Shown here: in pieces, positions 5,779 to 28,960 of the stretch
How the letters are laid out: every line of letters starts with the position of its first letter
Position numbering within the stretch: position 1 is the first letter of the stretch
From: Lentisphaeria bacterium
Lineage (GTDB): Bacteria > Verrucomicrobiota > Lentisphaeria > Victivallales > Victivallaceae
Assembly: GCA_017502435.1 (NCBI GenBank)
Contig: JAFVUZ010000236.1
Coordinates: forward strand, 1 to 34,160
Length of the DNA stretch: 34,160 bases
Direction: 5' to 3'
Translations under genes and position numbers: made by a program
The notes under the pieces: generated by a model
Seen by the model: the letters and a program-made list of their open reading frames with translations, nothing else
The model's database searches: none
What the model was told of the DNA's origin: nothing

Positions 5779-8766
5779 ATGTTTGGTAATTTCCTGAAAA
5801 AAGTGTTCGGTACCAAGTCAAAACGTGACGTGAAACGAATGCTGCCGCTTGTCGCCACAATCAATGCTCTTGAAGTTTCTTATCAGTCACTTTCTGATGA
5901 TGAACTCAAAAATAAAACTCTTGAGTTCAAGGAACGCCTTGCAAAAGGAGAGACCACCGATGATATCATGTGCGAAGCATTTGCCGTTGTAAAAAATGCC
6001 TGCCGCCGTCTCTGCGGTTCCAAAGTTATGGTTTGTGACCACGAACTTGAATGGAACATGATTCCGTTTGATGTGCAGATCATGGATGCTATTGCATTGC
6101 ACAAAGGTAAAATTGCTGAAATGGCGACAGGTGAAGGTAAAACTCTGGTTGCTTCCATGCCGCTTTACCTCAATGCTTTGACCGGACGCAACTGTCAGCT
6201 GGTTACTGTCAATGATTATCTTGCCCGCCGAGACTCCGAGTGGATCGGTGCGATTTATAAATTTCTGGGATTGACTGTCGGATGTCTGCAGAATATGCAG
6301 CCGCCGCCTGTCCGTCAGCAGCAGTATGCCTGCGACATCACTTACGGTACAAACAGTGAATTCGGGTTTGATTATCTGCGTGATATGGGGATGGCGGTTG
6401 ATGCAAAATATCTGGTTCAGCGTGACCATTTTTATGTTATCATTGACGAAATCGACAGTATTTTGATTGACGAGGCGAGAACTCCGCTGATTATTTCCGG
6501 TCCGGTTCCGATGTCAACCCACCAGTTTGATACCATTCAGCCGCTGGTTTCTCAAGTTTATCAGCAGCAGAATGCACTCTGTTCCCGCCTTATGCGTGAA
6601 GCAAATGAGTATTTGAATCGTGAAGACGGCATGACTAAAGATGAACTCAATATCGTTCTCCGCAAACTTCTGCAGGTCCGCTTCGGTATGCCGACTCACA
6701 AACAGTTGCTGCGTGCATTGGAAGATGGCGAACTGCTTAAAGAATTGGAAAAATATGAATCTTATGTCCGCAGTGACAATAACCGCGGTATGATCCAGGA
6801 AGTTCAGAGTGAACTTTTCTTTACCATTGACGAAAAGAGTAATGAAGCTGACCTGACAGCCAAAGGCCGTGAAGCAATCGCTCCCGGACATCCGGAAGAT
6901 TTTATTATGCCTGATCTGCTGATGTCAATTCATGAAATTGAAAGCGACAGTACGCTTACTGAAAAACAGAAACTTGACAAGCGGCAGAAATTTCAGGAGG
7001 ATTTTTCTGCTCAGAGTGAAAAACTGCACGATATTTCACAGCTGCTCAAAGCATACTGCCTCTTTGAAAAAGATGTCCATTATGTCGTTCAGGAAGGTAA
7101 AGTTATGATCGTTGACGAGCATACCGGACGTTTGATGCCCGGACGTCGTTTCAGCGACGGACTGCATCAGGCTCTGGAGGCCAAGGAACGTGTTCAAATC
7201 GAACAGGAAACTCAGACCATGGCGACCATTACCATTCAGAATTACTTCCGTATGTATGAAAAACTTGCCGGTATGACCGGTACTGCGGAAACTGAAGCCA
7301 ACGAGTTTTATCAGATCTATAAACTTGACGTGACTGTTATTCCTCCGAACCGTCCCTGCATCCGCAAAGATGACAATGACTCCATTTTCAAAACCAAACG
7401 TGAAAAATTCAACGCTATTGTTGATGAAGTTGAACGCCGTCATGCTCTCGGTCAGCCGGTTCTGCTCGGTACTATTTCGGTTGAGGATTCTGAAATTTTG
7501 AGCCGTATGCTCAAACGCAAAAATATTCCGCATAACGTTCTGAATGCCAAAAATAATATGCGTGAAGCTGAAATCGTCGCTGAAGCAGGTCAGAGAGGTG
7601 CCGTTACTGTCGCTACCAATATGGCAGGCCGCGGAACAGACATCAAACTCGGCGAAGGTGTTGCCGAACTTGGCGGTTTGCACGTTATCGGCAGTTCACG
7701 TCATGATTCCCGCCGAATTGACCGTCAGCTGCGTGGCCGCTGCAGCCGTCAGGGCGACCCCGGTTCATCTAAATTTTATGTCTCACTTGAAGACAATCTG
7801 ATGCGTCTTTTCGGTTCTGACCGCATTGTCAGTATTTTTGATAAATTCGGTATTGAAGAGGGAGAAGAACTTCAGCATCCTTTGCTGAACCGTTCCATTG
7901 AAACTGCTCAACGCCGTGTTGAACAGCAGCATTTTGCCATCCGTAAACACACTCTTGAATTTGACGATGTTATGAATAAACAGCGTGAAATCATTTACGG
8001 ATTGCGTAAGGATGCATTGCTGTCTGATAATCCGCATGATGTGCTTTTCTCTATTGTTGAAGATGTGCTTACTGAAAATGTTAATGCCTGTGCAACACCG
8101 AGAGAAGGCGAAAATACTTATGACAAGGCACGTTTGATTGAATATTTGAATATGTCTTTCCCGATTGAGTTCAGCGAAGACGAATTGACAGCAGGTTTTG
8201 AAAACGGAATGCTGAAAGACCCGCAGGCTCTCGTTTTGCAGCTTACTGAAAAAATCGAAGCCGCTTATAATCTCAAAAATGAGGTTATGACTCCCGAAAA
8301 TGTCGATTATCTGGAGCGTCATACCATTCTTGAATCCATTGACAGTCTCTGGCAGGAACATCTCTATGCCATGGATGGTCTGCGTTCAAGTATGTCTCTG
8401 CGTATTTATGCTCAGAAAGATCCGCTGGTCGAGTACAAAAATGAGGCTTTTGACGTATTCAAAAAGATGATGGACAAAGTTTATCTCTCTGTCGTTGCCA
8501 ATCTTTTCCGCGTAACTGTTTCAAGTCTTGAGGAGTTTGAAAGATTGCTTGCTCTTCAACAGCAGCAGATGAATATCAACAAAGCAGAGGTCAGCAGTGA
8601 ACTTCTGGAAGTCCTCGAAGGCCGCCGTCAGGCAATGGAAGATGTTCAGGATGCTGAAGAAGTGCCGCTCGTCAGTACTTATCGCCGCACTGAAGAAAAA
8701 ATCGGCCGCAATGACCCCTGTCCCTGCGGCAGCGGCAAAAAATACAAAAAATGCTGCGGCCGCTGA
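5779..8766 (+). CDS. secA: Protein translocase ATPase SecA
   Basis: SecA drives preproteins through the SecYEG channel by ATP hydrolysis. The 995-residue product has Walker A (ATGEGKT, about residues 116-122) and the DEAD-like Walker B region (IDEIDSILIDEAR, about 222-234). The second helicase domain carries TNMAGRGTDIKL and QLRGRCSRQGDPGSS. A C-terminal SEC-C zinc motif (CPCGSGKKYKKCC) ends the protein. Length is slightly above the usual 830-970 residues. GGAG lies 12 nt before ATG 5779. The gene has its own consensus promoter and a strong terminator (8786-8824). All motifs expected for an active enzyme are present. Confidence 0.98.
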   Translation: MFGNFLKKVFGTKSKRDVKRMLPLVATINALEVSYQSLSDDELKNKTLEFKERLAKGETTDDIMCEAFAVVKNACRRLCGSKVMVCDHELEWNMIPFDVQIMDAIALHKGKIAEMATGEGKTLVASMPLYLNALTGRNCQLVTVNDYLARRDSEWIGAIYKFLGLTVGCLQNMQPPPVRQQQYACDITYGTNSEFGFDYLRDMGMAVDAKYLVQRDHFYVIIDEIDSILIDEARTPLIISGPVPMSTHQFDTIQPLVSQVYQQQNALCSRLMREANEYLNREDGMTKDELNIVLRKLLQVRFGMPTHKQLLRALEDGELLKELEKYESYVRSDNNRGMIQEVQSELFFTIDEKSNEADLTAKGREAIAPGHPEDFIMPDLLMSIHEIESDSTLTEKQKLDKRQKFQEDFSAQSEKLHDISQLLKAYCLFEKDVHYVVQEGKVMIVDEHTGRLMPGRRFSDGLHQALEAKERVQIEQETQTMATITIQNYFRMYEKLAGMTGTAETEANEFYQIYKLDVTVIPPNRPCIRKDDNDSIFKTKREKFNAIVDEVERRHALGQPVLLGTISVEDSEILSRMLKRKNIPHNVLNAKNNMREAEIVAEAGQRGAVTVATNMAGRGTDIKLGEGVAELGGLHVIGSSRHDSRRIDRQLRGRCSRQGDPGSSKFYVSLEDNLMRLFGSDRIVSIFDKFGIEEGEELQHPLLNRSIETAQRRVEQQHFAIRKHTLEFDDVMNKQREIIYGLRKDALLSDNPHDVLFSIVEDVLTENVNACATPREGENTYDKARLIEYLNMSFPIEFSEDELTAGFENGMLKDPQALVLQLTEKIEAAYNLKNEVMTPENVDYLERHTILESIDSLWQEHLYAMDGLRSSMSLRIYAQKDPLVEYKNEAFDVFKKMMDKVYLSVVANLFRVTVSSLEEFERLLALQQQQMNINKAEVSSELLEVLEGRRQAMEDVQDAEEVPLVSTYRRTEEKIGRNDPCPCGSGKKYKKCCGR

Positions 8767-22751: not shown

Positions 22752-24110
22752 TCAGTTTTTCAGGCTGTGGATCGGGGCTGGAATATGACCTCCGCGTGAA
22801 ATAAATGCAAGCGGAGACTGATTGCGTACCGACATGACCGGAGCTTCCCCCAGCAAGCCGCCGAAATTGACGGTATCGCCGACTTTGCAGCCGCAGGCTG
22901 GAATAAGTCTGACGGCGGTTGTTTTGGTATTTGCCACGCCGATTGAGATTTCATCCGCAATGATTCCGGAAATAACAGCTGCACTTGTATCTCCGGGAAT
23001 TGCGATCATATCAAGTCCGACAGAACATACGGCAGTCATGGCTTCAAGTTTTTCAAGAGAAAGGACTCCGCTTCTGGCGGCGGCGATCATGCCTGCATCT
23101 TCAGAGACCGGAATAAATGCTCCGGAAAGACCGCCAACCTGACTGGAAGCCATGACACCGCCTTTTTTGACAGCATCATTAAGCAGAGCCAGAGCGGCAG
23201 TTGTTCCCGGACAGCCGCACTGTTCCAATCCCATTCCTTCAAGAATATACGCCACAGAGTCGCCGACTGCAGGAGTCGGAGCCAGAGATAAATCGACGAT
23301 TCCGAAAGGAACATTCAGACGGTTGGATGCTTCACGGGCGATAAGCTGACCGACGCGGGTGATTTTGAAGGCGGTTTTTTTGATAAGTTCGGCAAGTTCA
23401 GAGAAGTTGCAGTTGCCTGCACGTTTGATTGCAGAGGCGACAACTCCGGGACCGGAAACGCCGACATTTATTACTGTTTCAGGTTCGCCGATGCCGTGAA
23501 AAGCACCTGCCATGAAGGGATTATCTTCGGGGGCGTTGGCGAAAACCACAAGTTTTGCACAGCCGATGGAGCCTTTGTCAGCGGTCAATTCAGCGGCTTT
23601 TTTGATAATATGTCCCATTTGAGCAACGGCATCCATATTGATACCGGCTTTGGTTGAGGCAACATTGACGGATGAGCAGACGCGTTCGGTACTTGCCAAT
23701 GCTTCGGGGATGGAGTCAATAAGGATTCTTGCCCCGTTGGAGTACCCTTTCTGGACGAGTGCACTGTAACCGCCGATGAAGTTGATTCCGAGTTCGTGAG
23801 CGGCTTTGTCGAGAGTTTTTGCCAGATTGATGACGCCGTCGTTGTTGAGATTGCCGGAAAGCAGAGCGATCGGAGTTACGGAAACACGTTTGTTGATGAT
23901 GGGAATACCGTAAGTTTTTTCCAGTTCATCGCCGGTTTTTACGAGGTCTCTGGCAGAGACCATTATTTTGTCATAAACTTTGTCTGCCAGCCGTTTCGGG
24001 TCGTCACTCTGACAGTCATAGAGGGAAATTCCCATGGTGATAGTACGGATGTCGAGACACTCTTCACGTATCATGTTGAGTGTTTCCATGATATTTTCAG
24101 CAGCTAACAT
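22752..24110 (-). CDS. UPF0210 (PFL-like, DUF711) family protein
   Basis: The 453-residue protein matches the conserved UPF0210 family by memory of its features: [23 protein letters not shown] near the start, [20 protein letters not shown], and a Gly-rich segment [16 protein letters not shown]. The biochemical role is not established. ATG 24110 is chosen because AGGAG precedes it by 6-7 nt; a longer ORF start adds 27 residues that overlap the upstream ACT gene. It lies 13 nt after that ACT gene, a pairing known from many bacteria. Confidence 0.85.
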
Positions 24111-24123
24111 GGTTTTCTCCTGT

Positions 24124-24393
24124 TCAAATTTTGTGCATGGAGTTGAAAATATCTTCGTGCATGGTACGGATGAAAAGGTTGTTGTCCTCACCGAGTTTGG
24201 TCATGCTGTCAACGAAATCTGTAAAAGGTACGGTTATTGAATCAATATCTGCGACCATAAGCATTGAAAAATAACCTTTGAGTACAGTTTGGGAAATATC
24301 GAGGATGTTGACGCCGTATTGGGCACAGCCGTTGCTGACTTTGGCAATAATGCCGACGGAGTCACGGCCGGTAACGGAAATGACAGCTTTCAT
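24124..24393 (-). CDS. Small ACT-domain protein (UPF0237 type)
   Basis: The whole 89-residue protein is one ACT domain. It starts with [20 protein letters not shown], the ligand-binding loop typical of the family, and later has [23 protein letters not shown]. It is probably a cytosolic amino-acid sensor or a partner of the UPF0210 protein encoded 13 nt downstream. AAAGG lies upstream of ATG 24393. It follows fmt by 37 nt. Confidence 0.88.
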
Positions 24394-24430: not shown

Positions 24431-25396
24431 TCAGAGTGATTTGACTTGCAGACGGTAGCCGTTCAGGAAATCTTTGTGCGACATCATTTTTTTGCCGGGG
24501 ACGAGAACGGAGATAATACGCACGACTCTGCCGTCTGCACCGGCAATACGCAGAGCGGCTTTGTCAGCCTGAATGACGCATGATTTGAGCGGAGAAATTT
24601 CATCTTCGAGACGGCTGTCGCAGAGAAAGAAGTTTTTGAGAGTGCCGTCAGCCATCGGCAGTTCGATTGAAGCCATCGGCCATGGATTGAATGCATGGAT
24701 TTTTGCGTTGATATGTGCACCGATGTCCCGGGAGAGGTCGATGATGCCGTCGCTTTTTTTGAATTTTGAACAGAATGTGACTTGTGACGGTTCCTGCGGG
24801 AAGGGCTGAAGTTTGCCCTGTGCGATTTCAAGGAGGACGCTTTCAATACTTGCTCCAGCCAGAGCACCGAGACGTTTTTCCAGAGTTTCTGCGGTATCGG
24901 ATTCTTCGACAAGAGTTGCCAATGCACGGTAAATCGGACCGGAATCAAGACCTTTCTCCATTTTCATAAATGTAATGCCGGAAGTTTTTTCGCGGGCGAG
25001 CAGTGCGGAAATGACCGGACTTGCACCGCGGAATTTGGGCAGCAGCGATGAATGAATATTGATACAGGCGATTTTTGGCAGATTCAGTAACGGTTCACGG
25101 AGGATTTGAGCGAATGAGACAACGACGAGAAAATCCGGTGCAAGTTTTTCAATATGGCGTACATAACTTTCCTCATTGACCCTTTCGACTTTTTCGATAG
25201 GGATACCGAGTTCGGCGGCACGGATGCCGACAGGCGTGGGGGTCAGGATTTTTTTCCGTCCGGCGGGGCGGTCGATCTGAGTTGCACAGCCGACGAGTTC
25301 CAGACTCTCTGCCTGAAGTAATTTTTCAAAAATCGGGATGGCTATTTCGCCTGCTCCCATAAAAAAAACCTTGAACTTTTCCACTTTTTGCACCAT
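24431..25396 (-). CDS. fmt: Methionyl-tRNA formyltransferase
   Basis: It formylates initiator Met-tRNA with 10-formyl-tetrahydrofolate. The 321-residue length is normal. The N-terminal Rossmann domain carries the catalytic set N113 and H115 in INIHSSLLPKFRGASP and D151 in EKGLDSGPI. The C-terminal OB-type domain (about 210-321) includes the NAKIHAFNPWP segment. It shares a 77-bp divergent promoter region with the HPPK-Dus gene, which acts in folate synthesis, and heads an operon with the ACT and UPF0210 genes. No def gene is adjacent. ATG 25396 has only a weak ribosome-binding site. Confidence 0.95.
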   Translation of the reverse strand: MVQKVEKFKVFFMGAGEIAIPIFEKLLQAESLELVGCATQIDRPAGRKKILTPTPVGIRAAELGIPIEKVERVNEESYVRHIEKLAPDFLVVVSFAQILREPLLNLPKIACINIHSSLLPKFRGASPVISALLAREKTSGITFMKMEKGLDSGPIYRALATLVEESDTAETLEKRLGALAGASIESVLLEIAQGKLQPFPQEPSQVTFCSKFKKSDGIIDLSRDIGAHINAKIHAFNPWPMASIELPMADGTLKNFFLCDSRLEDEISPLKSCVIQADKAALRIAGADGRVVRIISVLVPGKKMMSHKDFLNGYRLQVKSL

Positions 25397-25402
25397 TTTT
25401 GC

Positions 25403-25454
25403 TTGAATTTCCGTGAAATGCTGTTAATATACATCTACAATGTGTAAAAATCAA
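25403..25454. promoter_or_regulatory. Overlapping divergent promoters for fmt and the HPPK-Dus gene
   Basis: Plus strand: TTGAAT (25403-25408), 16 nt, TAATAT (25425-25430). Minus strand: TTGATT (25454-25449), 17 nt, TATATT (25431-25426). The two -10 hexamers overlap, so polymerase could bind only one direction at a time. The HPPK-Dus start (ATG 25474) lacks a clear ribosome-binding site. Confidence 0.5.
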
Positions 25455-25473
25455 ATAAAAAATTGTGTAAAAT

Positions 25474-26796
25474 ATGAAGAGAAAGATTTTTTTGGCTCTC
25501 GGCGGCAATATCGGTGATGTTCCGTCGGTTTTTGACAGGGCATTGAAATATTTATCAGATAACGGAGTTTCAATTTTAAAACGCAGTTCATGTGCTGTTA
25601 CCACTCCGGAAGATTGTCCGCCGGGAACTCCGGACTTCTACAATTCTGCGGTTCTGGCGGAAACGGAACTTGAAGCTGAAGATTTGCTTAAACTGACGCA
25701 GAAAACAGAAGTTTTGTGCGGCAGACCTGCCGATCACGGTTTTCATGAATCACGGACGCTTGACATTGATATAATTTATATGGAGGATGTCAGGTATTAT
25801 ACAGGGCATCTGCAAATACCGCATCCGCGTGCGGCAGCCAGAGATTTTGTTATGCGTTTTCTGCTGGAACTTGATGCTGATGCATATTCCAAGGTTCAGC
25901 CGTTGAAAATGTTGACCCCGTGTCCCGGACCGATGGAGGGAGTTATGACTCCTGCTTTGATAAAAACTGCCGTAGAAGAGAAGGTCTGCAGTGAATTTGT
26001 AACTCCGTTTTTGCGTATATCGGAACATATTCCGAAAGAAAAGGAAATCCGCAAATTTCTTGAGCCGTATAAAAATAACCGTGTTACTCTGCAACTGATG
26101 GGAAATTCTCCTTCGCTGCTGGCAGAGAGTGCGGCAATGGCAATGAAATTTGATATCGCTGGAATAAATCTCAATTTCGGCTGTCCGAGCGGTCAGGTCC
26201 TGCGTCATCAAAGCGGCGGAGCCATGTTGAAAAATCCGCCGCTTATGCGGGAAATTTGCCGTGCCATCCGCAACCGTTGTCCTGAACTTGTGCTGAGTGC
26301 CAAAATCAGAATGGGTTTTGACAGTGAAAAAGAGTGTGAAAACTGGCTTGGAGATTGGAGTTCTTCAAATGATGATGCACCTGATTTCTTTATCCTCCAC
26401 AGCCGTTCTGTCAGTGAAAATTATCAGCCTCTGCCGGAATCTGAACATATCAGCCGCAGTAAAAAAGTTGTTAAACTGGTCAGTCAGCCGGTGATGCTCA
26501 ATGGCGACATCGGGGATGTGAAAACAGCTGTTGAACGTATGCAGAAAACGGGCGGAGTTTCCTTTATGTCCGCCCGTATGTGGCTGAAAGATCCGTATAT
26601 TTTCCGCAATTTTGAGAATGGGATATTTGAGCCGTCTTCGCCGGATGAAAGGATCCGCTTTTATAAACTTGTGCTTGAAAATGCACAAAAGTCAGGTTTG
26701 CCATATAATAACGGGAAGCAAATAGAGTTGTCGCAGCTCATGTTTGCTCCCCGTAATCCGTTTTTTGCGGAGTTATGCCGTAAAGGCAAAAACTGA
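25474..26796 (+). CDS. folK: Fusion of HPPK (FolK) and tRNA-dihydrouridine synthase (Dus)
   Basis: One 440-codon ORF encodes two enzymes. Residues 1-145 are HPPK, which pyrophosphorylates 6-hydroxymethyl-dihydropterin: LALGGNIGD (7-15), PDFYNSAV (53-60), CGRP (82-85), RTLDIDIIY (94-102, catalytic D97 and D99) and IPHPRAAARDFVMRFL (115-130). Residues 147-440 are Dus: LTPCPGPMEGVMT, INLNFGCPS (231-239, catalytic C237), GGAML, SAKIRMGF (K277), ILHSR (H309), MLNGDIG, and MSARMWLKDPYIF. Both active sites look intact; the Dus C-terminal helical domain is shortish. No stop or internal start with a good ribosome-binding site separates the halves. In Bacillus folK and a dus gene are near neighbours, so this fuses a known adjacency. 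A frame error cannot be wholly excluded but is unlikely, since one frame covers both. Confidence 0.9.
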   Translation: MKRKIFLALGGNIGDVPSVFDRALKYLSDNGVSILKRSSCAVTTPEDCPPGTPDFYNSAVLAETELEAEDLLKLTQKTEVLCGRPADHGFHESRTLDIDIIYMEDVRYYTGHLQIPHPRAAARDFVMRFLLELDADAYSKVQPLKMLTPCPGPMEGVMTPALIKTAVEEKVCSEFVTPFLRISEHIPKEKEIRKFLEPYKNNRVTLQLMGNSPSLLAESAAMAMKFDIAGINLNFGCPSGQVLRHQSGGAMLKNPPLMREICRAIRNRCPELVLSAKIRMGFDSEKECENWLGDWSSSNDDAPDFFILHSRSVSENYQPLPESEHISRSKKVVKLVSQPVMLNGDIGDVKTAVERMQKTGGVSFMSARMWLKDPYIFRNFENGIFEPSSPDERIRFYKLVLENAQKSGLPYNNGKQIELSQLMFAPRNPFFAELCRKGKN

Positions 26797-26797
26797 A

Positions 26798-28960
26798 TTA
26801 TTCAGCATATACTTTGAGAATTGCTTTTGAATAAGTATTGCTGTTGCCGGCAAAAGTCCAGTCGGGATGCCCTTTTTTCTGATTGCCGAGACCGAGATCA
26901 TGGTCTTTTTTTACAAAACCGTTGAAAGCAAAAATTGTCTCTTTCAATGTGGGATTGTGAATCTGCATTGAACCGTAATTTCCACCGGCAACCGGTGTAT
27001 CGCCGAAGTCAAATACATTATTGTTGGCACCGGGGATTTTTGCTTCATTTGTATTTTTGTAGTTTTTGGGCCAGAATTCGATTCTGCCCTCGTCGGCGGA
27101 TTGGGTTTTGATATTTTTGGAATTGGTTATGACCTTGAGATTTTTAACTTTCCCTGCAAAAGAGAAGCCGGATTTGATGACGGGAACACCGATTTTTCTG
27201 ACATCACCGGTAAAGGCATCCATCATTATAAATGCAAAATCTTTGTCGCCTTTTTTATTGACCAATTCTATATAATAGATGATTTTTTTGACTTTACCTG
27301 TGAATTTTGCGGAGTTATCCTGAATGTATTTAATGGAACCGTCGGCTTGAGTTGCTGTTTTCAGGTCGCATTCATAGATGAGAGAGGTGTTTTCAGAAAT
27401 ACTTTTTGCAAAATTGTCAGTATCGATTTTTTGTTCGCAGCGGAAAGCACCGAGTGGAAGTCCTGCTTCGTTCCAGAGATTTCCTCTGTTGTGCTGATGC
27501 CACATATAACGGAGGGATGAAGGTGATTTAACTTTATCGGATGAAACGATAATGTCGGTACCTTTTACCTCAAATTTTGCCCGTTCCCAGTTGCCGCGAA
27601 TATCTGCAAGTTCAAAATTGTCATCTTTGCCGTTGAGCAGCCATTTTTCGACGTGTTTGAATTTGAGGATGAATTTGCCGTCTTTGACTTCAAAAGATGT
27701 CAGTTGCGGAGAATCTGCTTTGAGGGCAGTTTTGCCATGGGTATATTTGAGAGCGAGCAGAGAAAGTCTTTTGCCGACATCTTTTTTGTTATGCGGATGG
27801 ATGTCTTTGAAATCGCCGATGTCGTTGATGATTGCCAGTTTGACATTTTTTGCAGCATTGGCAAATTTCTGCTGAGTTTCCCAGATGAGCGGCAATGCGT
27901 AGGGGGAGGGGTAAGTATAGGGAGCAAGCTGAACGATATAAAAAGGCATATCGGGATTGTCGAAAACTTTTCGCCATCCATTGGTGAGTGCCTGAAGTTT
28001 ATAGAAATAGTTTGCTCCGTCACCGAGATTGGAACAGCCCTGATACCAGATCGCACCTTTGACTGCAAAAGGCAGCAGAGGATAAATCATGCGGTTGTAA
28101 GCCATTGTCGGATACTGCAGACCGGGATAAGGAACTGCGGCCTTAGGATATGCCGGAGGAGTCGGACGCGGGGTATTTTCAGCGACTGCTTTTTTGAAAG
28201 CAGCGAGCCATTTTTCATATATTGAGGTAATTTGCGTGTTGATTTGCTTATATTCCGGAGTTCCCGGGATTTTGGCATTGACTTCAAAGGCGGTATTTTT
28301 GAGAGCCGGGACAGAGTCAAAGCCGACCGGAGGTATCCACGGTTCAATGCGTGAACCGCTCCAGCAGGAAACGACGAGCCCGATCGGCACATCGAGAGCT
28401 TTGAACATCTCCTGACCGAAATAAAATGCAGTTGCAGAGAGAGATACTGCATTGTTGCCGTTTGCCATAATCCATTTCAACTGGATTTTACCGTCAAAGG
28501 GCAGGGGGGAGATTTTGGTTGGCACAGTGACAAAGCGGATAAAATCAGTTCTGCCCTCTGCAACGTGTTTATTGCCGTCGGTTGCACGCCAGCGGGGATT
28601 ATTTGTCCACATATTCATAGCCATATTGGATTGACCGCCGCAGAGCCAGACATCGCCGATGAGAACATTTGCAATAGCTGCGGAGTTTTTGGCTCCGGCG
28701 GCTTTCAGTATCTGACCTTTTTTGTTGGCTGACATTGGAGCGAGAAATGCGGTCCATCTGCCTTTGGCATCAGCGGTGGTGCTGACGGTTTGACCGTTGA
28801 AAGTGACGGTGATTTTTTCATTGGGAGCGGCAGTTCCGTGAATTGGCACTTTGACATCTCTCTGCAGAACCATGTGGTCGCAGAAAATGTCCGCCAGTTT
28901 GACGTCAGCAAAAAGACTGCAGACGGTCAAAGCGGCGAGCATGGTGAATAATTTTTTCAT
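26798..28960 (-). CDS. Exported sialate O-acetylesterase-like protein (SASA/SGNH) with C-terminal extension
   Basis: The 720-residue protein has a signal peptide (about 1-19). A beta domain (20-100; CDHMVLQRDVKVPIHGTA) is typical of the family. The SGNH catalytic part has GDVWLCGGQSNM (102-113, S111), IWYQGCSN, and DIHPHNKKDVGKRL (about 390-405) with the catalytic His. Many family members have WYQGESN where this one has Cys. Residues beyond about 540 form a beta-rich extension with no recognised family. Such enzymes remove acetyl groups from sialic acid or plant glycans. It starts with a 4-nt ATGA overlap with the upstream glucosaminidase-like gene, and its stop codon is 1 nt from that of the convergent HPPK-Dus gene. 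Confidence 0.88.
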   Translation of the reverse strand: MKKLFTMLAALTVCSLFADVKLADIFCDHMVLQRDVKVPIHGTAAPNEKITVTFNGQTVSTTADAKGRWTAFLAPMSANKKGQILKAAGAKNSAAIANVLIGDVWLCGGQSNMAMNMWTNNPRWRATDGNKHVAEGRTDFIRFVTVPTKISPLPFDGKIQLKWIMANGNNAVSLSATAFYFGQEMFKALDVPIGLVVSCWSGSRIEPWIPPVGFDSVPALKNTAFEVNAKIPGTPEYKQINTQITSIYEKWLAAFKKAVAENTPRPTPPAYPKAAVPYPGLQYPTMAYNRMIYPLLPFAVKGAIWYQGCSNLGDGANYFYKLQALTNGWRKVFDNPDMPFYIVQLAPYTYPSPYALPLIWETQQKFANAAKNVKLAIINDIGDFKDIHPHNKKDVGKRLSLLALKYTHGKTALKADSPQLTSFEVKDGKFILKFKHVEKWLLNGKDDNFELADIRGNWERAKFEVKGTDIIVSSDKVKSPSSLRYMWHQHNRGNLWNEAGLPLGAFRCEQKIDTDNFAKSISENTSLIYECDLKTATQADGSIKYIQDNSAKFTGKVKKIIYYIELVNKKGDKDFAFIMMDAFTGDVRKIGVPVIKSGFSFAGKVKNLKVITNSKNIKTQSADEGRIEFWPKNYKNTNEAKIPGANNNVFDFGDTPVAGGNYGSMQIHNPTLKETIFAFNGFVKKDHDLGLGNQKKGHPDWTFAGNSNTYSKAILKVYAE

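Follow-up and report, generated by a model that had tools for sequence, protein, structure and literature searches.

An in-frame HPPK-Dus fusion in one genus of Victivallaceae, probably derived from overlapping folK and dus genes

The window analyzed here is a stretch of 34,160 nucleotides from a Lentisphaeria bacterium (GenBank assembly GCA_017502435.1, contig JAFVUZ010000236.1). Positions 25474..26796 of its forward strand, stop codon included, form a single ORF that begins with ATG and encodes 440 amino acids with no internal stop, according to frame analysis of the window. An in-frame TAA lies one codon upstream (25468-25470), and no start precedes the ATG at 25474 in this frame; the computed probability that 440 codons would stay open by chance at the local GC content is about 2e-11. 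Pfam finds two domains in the product, HPPK (PF01288, residues 6-134, 86.7 bits against a cut-off of 25.7, E = 2e-24) and Dus (PF01207, residues 153-396, 124.3 bits against a cut-off of 20.4, E = 7e-36), with a linker of residues 135-152 between them (25876..25929, forward strand). An earlier note made from the DNA letters alone had claimed one uninterrupted ORF joining these two domains. Its coordinates and length of 440 residues are both borne out, and the Pfam check of the product that it proposed places both domains far above their cut-offs. Structure prediction for the fusion protein alone gives a mean pLDDT of 36, which is unusable.

The genus is represented by three draft genomes, 84-98% complete: G000, which holds the window (2.86 Mb in 266 contigs, 87% complete, 5% estimated contamination), G001, and G002 (98% complete). 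The folK-dus fusion gene of G000, which has a counterpart in G001, is divergent from fmt, encoding methionyl-tRNA formyltransferase (24431..25396, reverse strand), across a gap of 77 bp (25397-25473). It converges with a gene for a 720-residue protein (26798..28960, reverse strand) that looks by eye like a sialate O-acetylesterase, and G001 has this same neighbor. Beyond fmt lie two further reverse-strand genes (22752-24393), by eye an ACT-domain protein and a UPF0210 (DUF711) protein; a UPF0210-like gene also occurs beyond fmt in G001. The earlier note saw in fmt, as another folate-dependent gene, part of a common theme. The divergent arrangement is kept in G001, but no fmt is found beside the folK and dus genes of G002, so fmt is not a consistent companion and the theme lacks support.

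The HPPK (FolK) half, at 25489..25875 of the forward strand, scores 84.2 bits against the NCBIfam folK equivalog model TIGR01498, above its cut-off of 54.1 bits. It shares with E. coli FolK the whole domain, the metal-binding Asp pair (D95 and D97 of the E. coli enzyme align with D97 and D99 of the fusion protein) and the invariant Arg, His and Phe residues, such that E. coli R82, R92, N55, H115, R121 and F123 are all conserved, as R84, R94, N57, H117, R123 and F125 respectively. It differs from E. coli FolK in being joined at its C-terminus to Dus, and in replacing the E. coli loop 3 residues R84, R88 and W89 together with a few pterin-pocket positions. The standalone FolK proteins of the order likewise lack R88 and W89, and most of them lack R84. 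Because these standalone relatives differ there too, the loop 3 and pterin-pocket changes were not caused by the fusion. By homology, the domain would use ATP and a pterin to make 6-hydroxymethyl-7,8-dihydropterin diphosphate. One HPPK copy is found in G000 and one match in G001, each being the fusion itself, in drafts from which a second folK could be missing. Together with the presence of folP and folE in G000, this single copy suggests that the HPPK function is probably needed.

The Dus half (residues 153-440; 25930..26793, forward strand) shares with E. coli DusC (PDB 4bf9) and the Dus family the barrel motifs PMEGV, N-x-x-C, K-x-R and H-x-R with their catalytic Cys, Lys and His, and differs from them in its short, divergent C-terminal part. 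Cys98, Lys139 and His168 of E. coli DusC align with C237, K277 and H309, the three residues that the earlier note had picked out as catalytic. Assignment to a subfamily requires more care. The domain matches the NCBIfam DusB, DusC and DusA models and reaches the cut-off of none; with 74 bits against a cut-off of 395 for the DusC equivalog NF007838, it is classed as DusC-like rather than DusC. In a phylogenetic tree it groups with E. coli DusC at a support of 99/91, with long branches that make the DusC placement unsure, and it falls in the order's own second Dus clade, separate from a DusB-like copy. Both G000 and G001 encode that DusB-like copy elsewhere; hence neither species has the fused Dus as its sole Dus. 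Members of the order's DusC-like clade (L008-L034 and related loci) are proteins of about 300 residues in which the C-terminal part is short and an IEL(S/A)NFLWG-type motif recurs; the two members scanned, the G000 fusion and the G002 protein, score under every NCBIfam Dus cut-off. By homology again, the C-terminal domain would reduce a uridine in the D-loop of tRNA, using FMN and NADPH.

An ORF of this kind might arise as a chimera of assembly or binning, or from a sequencing error that deletes a stop at the junction, and the draft state of G000, with its many contigs and its estimated contamination, invites the suspicion. The second species, G001, argues strongly against it. In that separately assembled genome the same continuous gene, with the same flanking genes, encodes a protein 71% identical over residues 1-437, and 439 codons of the two genes align with no internal gap and none across the junction. 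The linker has diverged to 56% identity and is still in frame. A separate assembly carrying the same gene, with a linker that has diverged and yet kept frame, makes an assembly error very unlikely, and we regard an artifact of any of these kinds as scarcely credible. The differences between the two genes are concentrated at third codon positions, with 24%, 18% and 51% for first, second and third positions. The NG86 method gives dN = 0.24 and dS = 1.90, with dN/dS about 0.13 in each domain, values that are approximate since dS is near saturation. The pattern, for all the roughness of the ratio, points to purifying selection on both halves of the protein. Since two species preserve the unbroken frame, comparison at the sequence level confirms the in-frame joining of HPPK to Dus as a true gene fusion.

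The two domains could still act separately if one chain were made and then cleaved, or if a product containing only Dus were translated from an internal start. Candidate starts can be found in G000, namely an ATG at residue 146, immediately ahead of the Dus domain, and another at residue 158 preceded by a GGAGG-like stretch. The first of these is absent from G001, however, and initiation at 154 or 158 would leave the product without its first strand and without some or all of the conserved PMEGV motif, while a TTG at 147, common to both species, has no clear ribosome-binding site upstream by eye. Separate action of the two domains is judged highly improbable.

The likely origin of the fusion can be read from the third species of the genus. 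In G002, folK (5972-6436 of L038) and dus (6421-7323) are adjacent and unfused, overlap by 16 bp in different frames, and sit in a different neighborhood from that of the fusion gene. The tree places the fused Dus as sister to the G002 Dus with support of 97/95, and the fused HPPK as sister to the G002 FolK with a modest 81/77. Between the DFVM motif of HPPK and the PMEGV motif of Dus, the two fused genes have 75 nt each and unfused G002 has 104 nt; the 29 nt by which they differ (2 mod 3) would bring the folK and dus frames together. We infer that the overlapping pair of G002 represents the older state and the likely precursor, and that adjacent, overlapping folK and dus genes would have been joined into one frame in an ancestor shared by the other two species. 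The earlier note had proposed that a known adjacency was turned into one protein, by reference to Bacillus. Adjacency of a local kind is seen in G002, and there is no sign of inheritance from an ancient Bacillus-like linkage.

To place the event, searches covered 78 genomes of the family, 137 of the order, 198 of the class and a phylum sample of 388, the class search being run at a strict threshold, under which weak and distant cases of fusion or adjacency might go unnoticed. Among the matches listed, only G000 and G001 show a match across both domains, and no other HPPK-Dus fusion appears in the family, order, class or phylum sample. The comparison with related genomes that the earlier note had called for therefore adds one species, G001. 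Elsewhere in the family and order, HPPK and the DusC-like Dus lie on different contigs or are separated by distances that run from 76 kb (G029) through about 0.98 Mb (G020) to about 1.5 Mb (G012). In wider searches, genome contigs gave only a standalone HPPK of Thiomicrorhabdus, viral contigs gave no match to the fusion, and no plasmid locus covered 80% of the query. With no other fusion from the family to the phylum sample, joining of folK to dus appears to be a recent, genus-level event and not a conserved partnership. Open frames of 416-513 residues around HPPK in six other genomes (G175, G194, G078, G036, G018 and G038) were considered as fusions and rejected; HPPK is C-terminal in them, there is no Dus match, and the stretch before HPPK looks by eye like non-coding read-through.

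Another genus of the family offers a separate observation. The reverse strand of G011:C113 (L053) encodes a 335-residue fusion of HPPK and an HD domain (Pfam E-values of 5e-26 and 8e-6), and in the congener G027 the HPPK match contains one in-frame TGA. Given the HPPK-HD protein of G011, folK has fused with at least two different partners within this family, a point in favor of incidental joining.

Does the fusion link the two activities? Folate synthesis and tRNA modification would be coupled if pterin or folate status, or a reduced pterin as substrate, affected Dus, or if binding of tRNA affected HPPK. Retention of the architecture in two species, purifying selection and a fixed linker length speak for such coupling. 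Against it, folK and dus are unlinked in other relatives, folK is joined to a different partner elsewhere in the family, and in E. coli the HPPK and Dus activities are each self-sufficient. Coupling in this broad sense is quite improbable. Its more specific form, in which the fusion acts in this genus as a sensor or coupling device, linking dihydrouridylation of the tRNA D-loop to the supply of pterin or folate, is very doubtful. The earlier note had suggested a functional link between pterin and tRNA modification chemistry, a suggestion that finds no support, the two genes lying apart in other relatives. The fusion would fix co-expression of HPPK and Dus at 1:1, and nothing is known to be exchanged between the two domains, be it substrate, cofactor or product. 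Most simply, the fusion would be a harmless by-product of adjacency, and each domain most likely retains its ordinary reaction. Overall, we consider it very likely that this is a bifunctional protein formed by in-frame merger of overlapping folK and dus genes, its two domains inferred to carry out their usual reactions and to be uncoupled.

The protein matters for several reasons. With Dus, the known HPPK fusions gain a partner that has apparently not been described before. A genus that shows both the merged gene and its likely precursor provides a clean example of fusion from overlapping genes, and also a caution against inferring a functional link from a fusion found in one shallow lineage. 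We know of no earlier direct tie between pterin synthesis and tRNA dihydrouridine, and coupling, if true, would be the first known to us.

Fusions of HPPK as such are familiar. FolB-FolK and FolK-FolP proteins have already been described (PMC1971073; PMC4224340), and solved structures of HPPK fusions include 2cg8, 7mpy and 4pzv. A search confined to part of the literature found no description of the HPPK-Dus architecture, in agreement with the earlier note, which had tentatively taken the combination to be undescribed. The protein of G000 and G001 resembles FolB-FolK and FolK-FolP in joining HPPK to another enzyme in one chain, and differs in the nature of the partner, since the known partners are steps of the folate pathway whereas this one would be a tRNA-modifying enzyme. 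From the side of Dus, a survey of architectures assigns just the catalytic domain to DusB and DusC, with disordered tails, a zinc finger or a dsRBD as extras in the family (PMC3674756). The fusion protein is similar to those surveyed in that additional N- or C-terminal parts occur among them, and differs from them in that its additional part is HPPK rather than any of the extras named.
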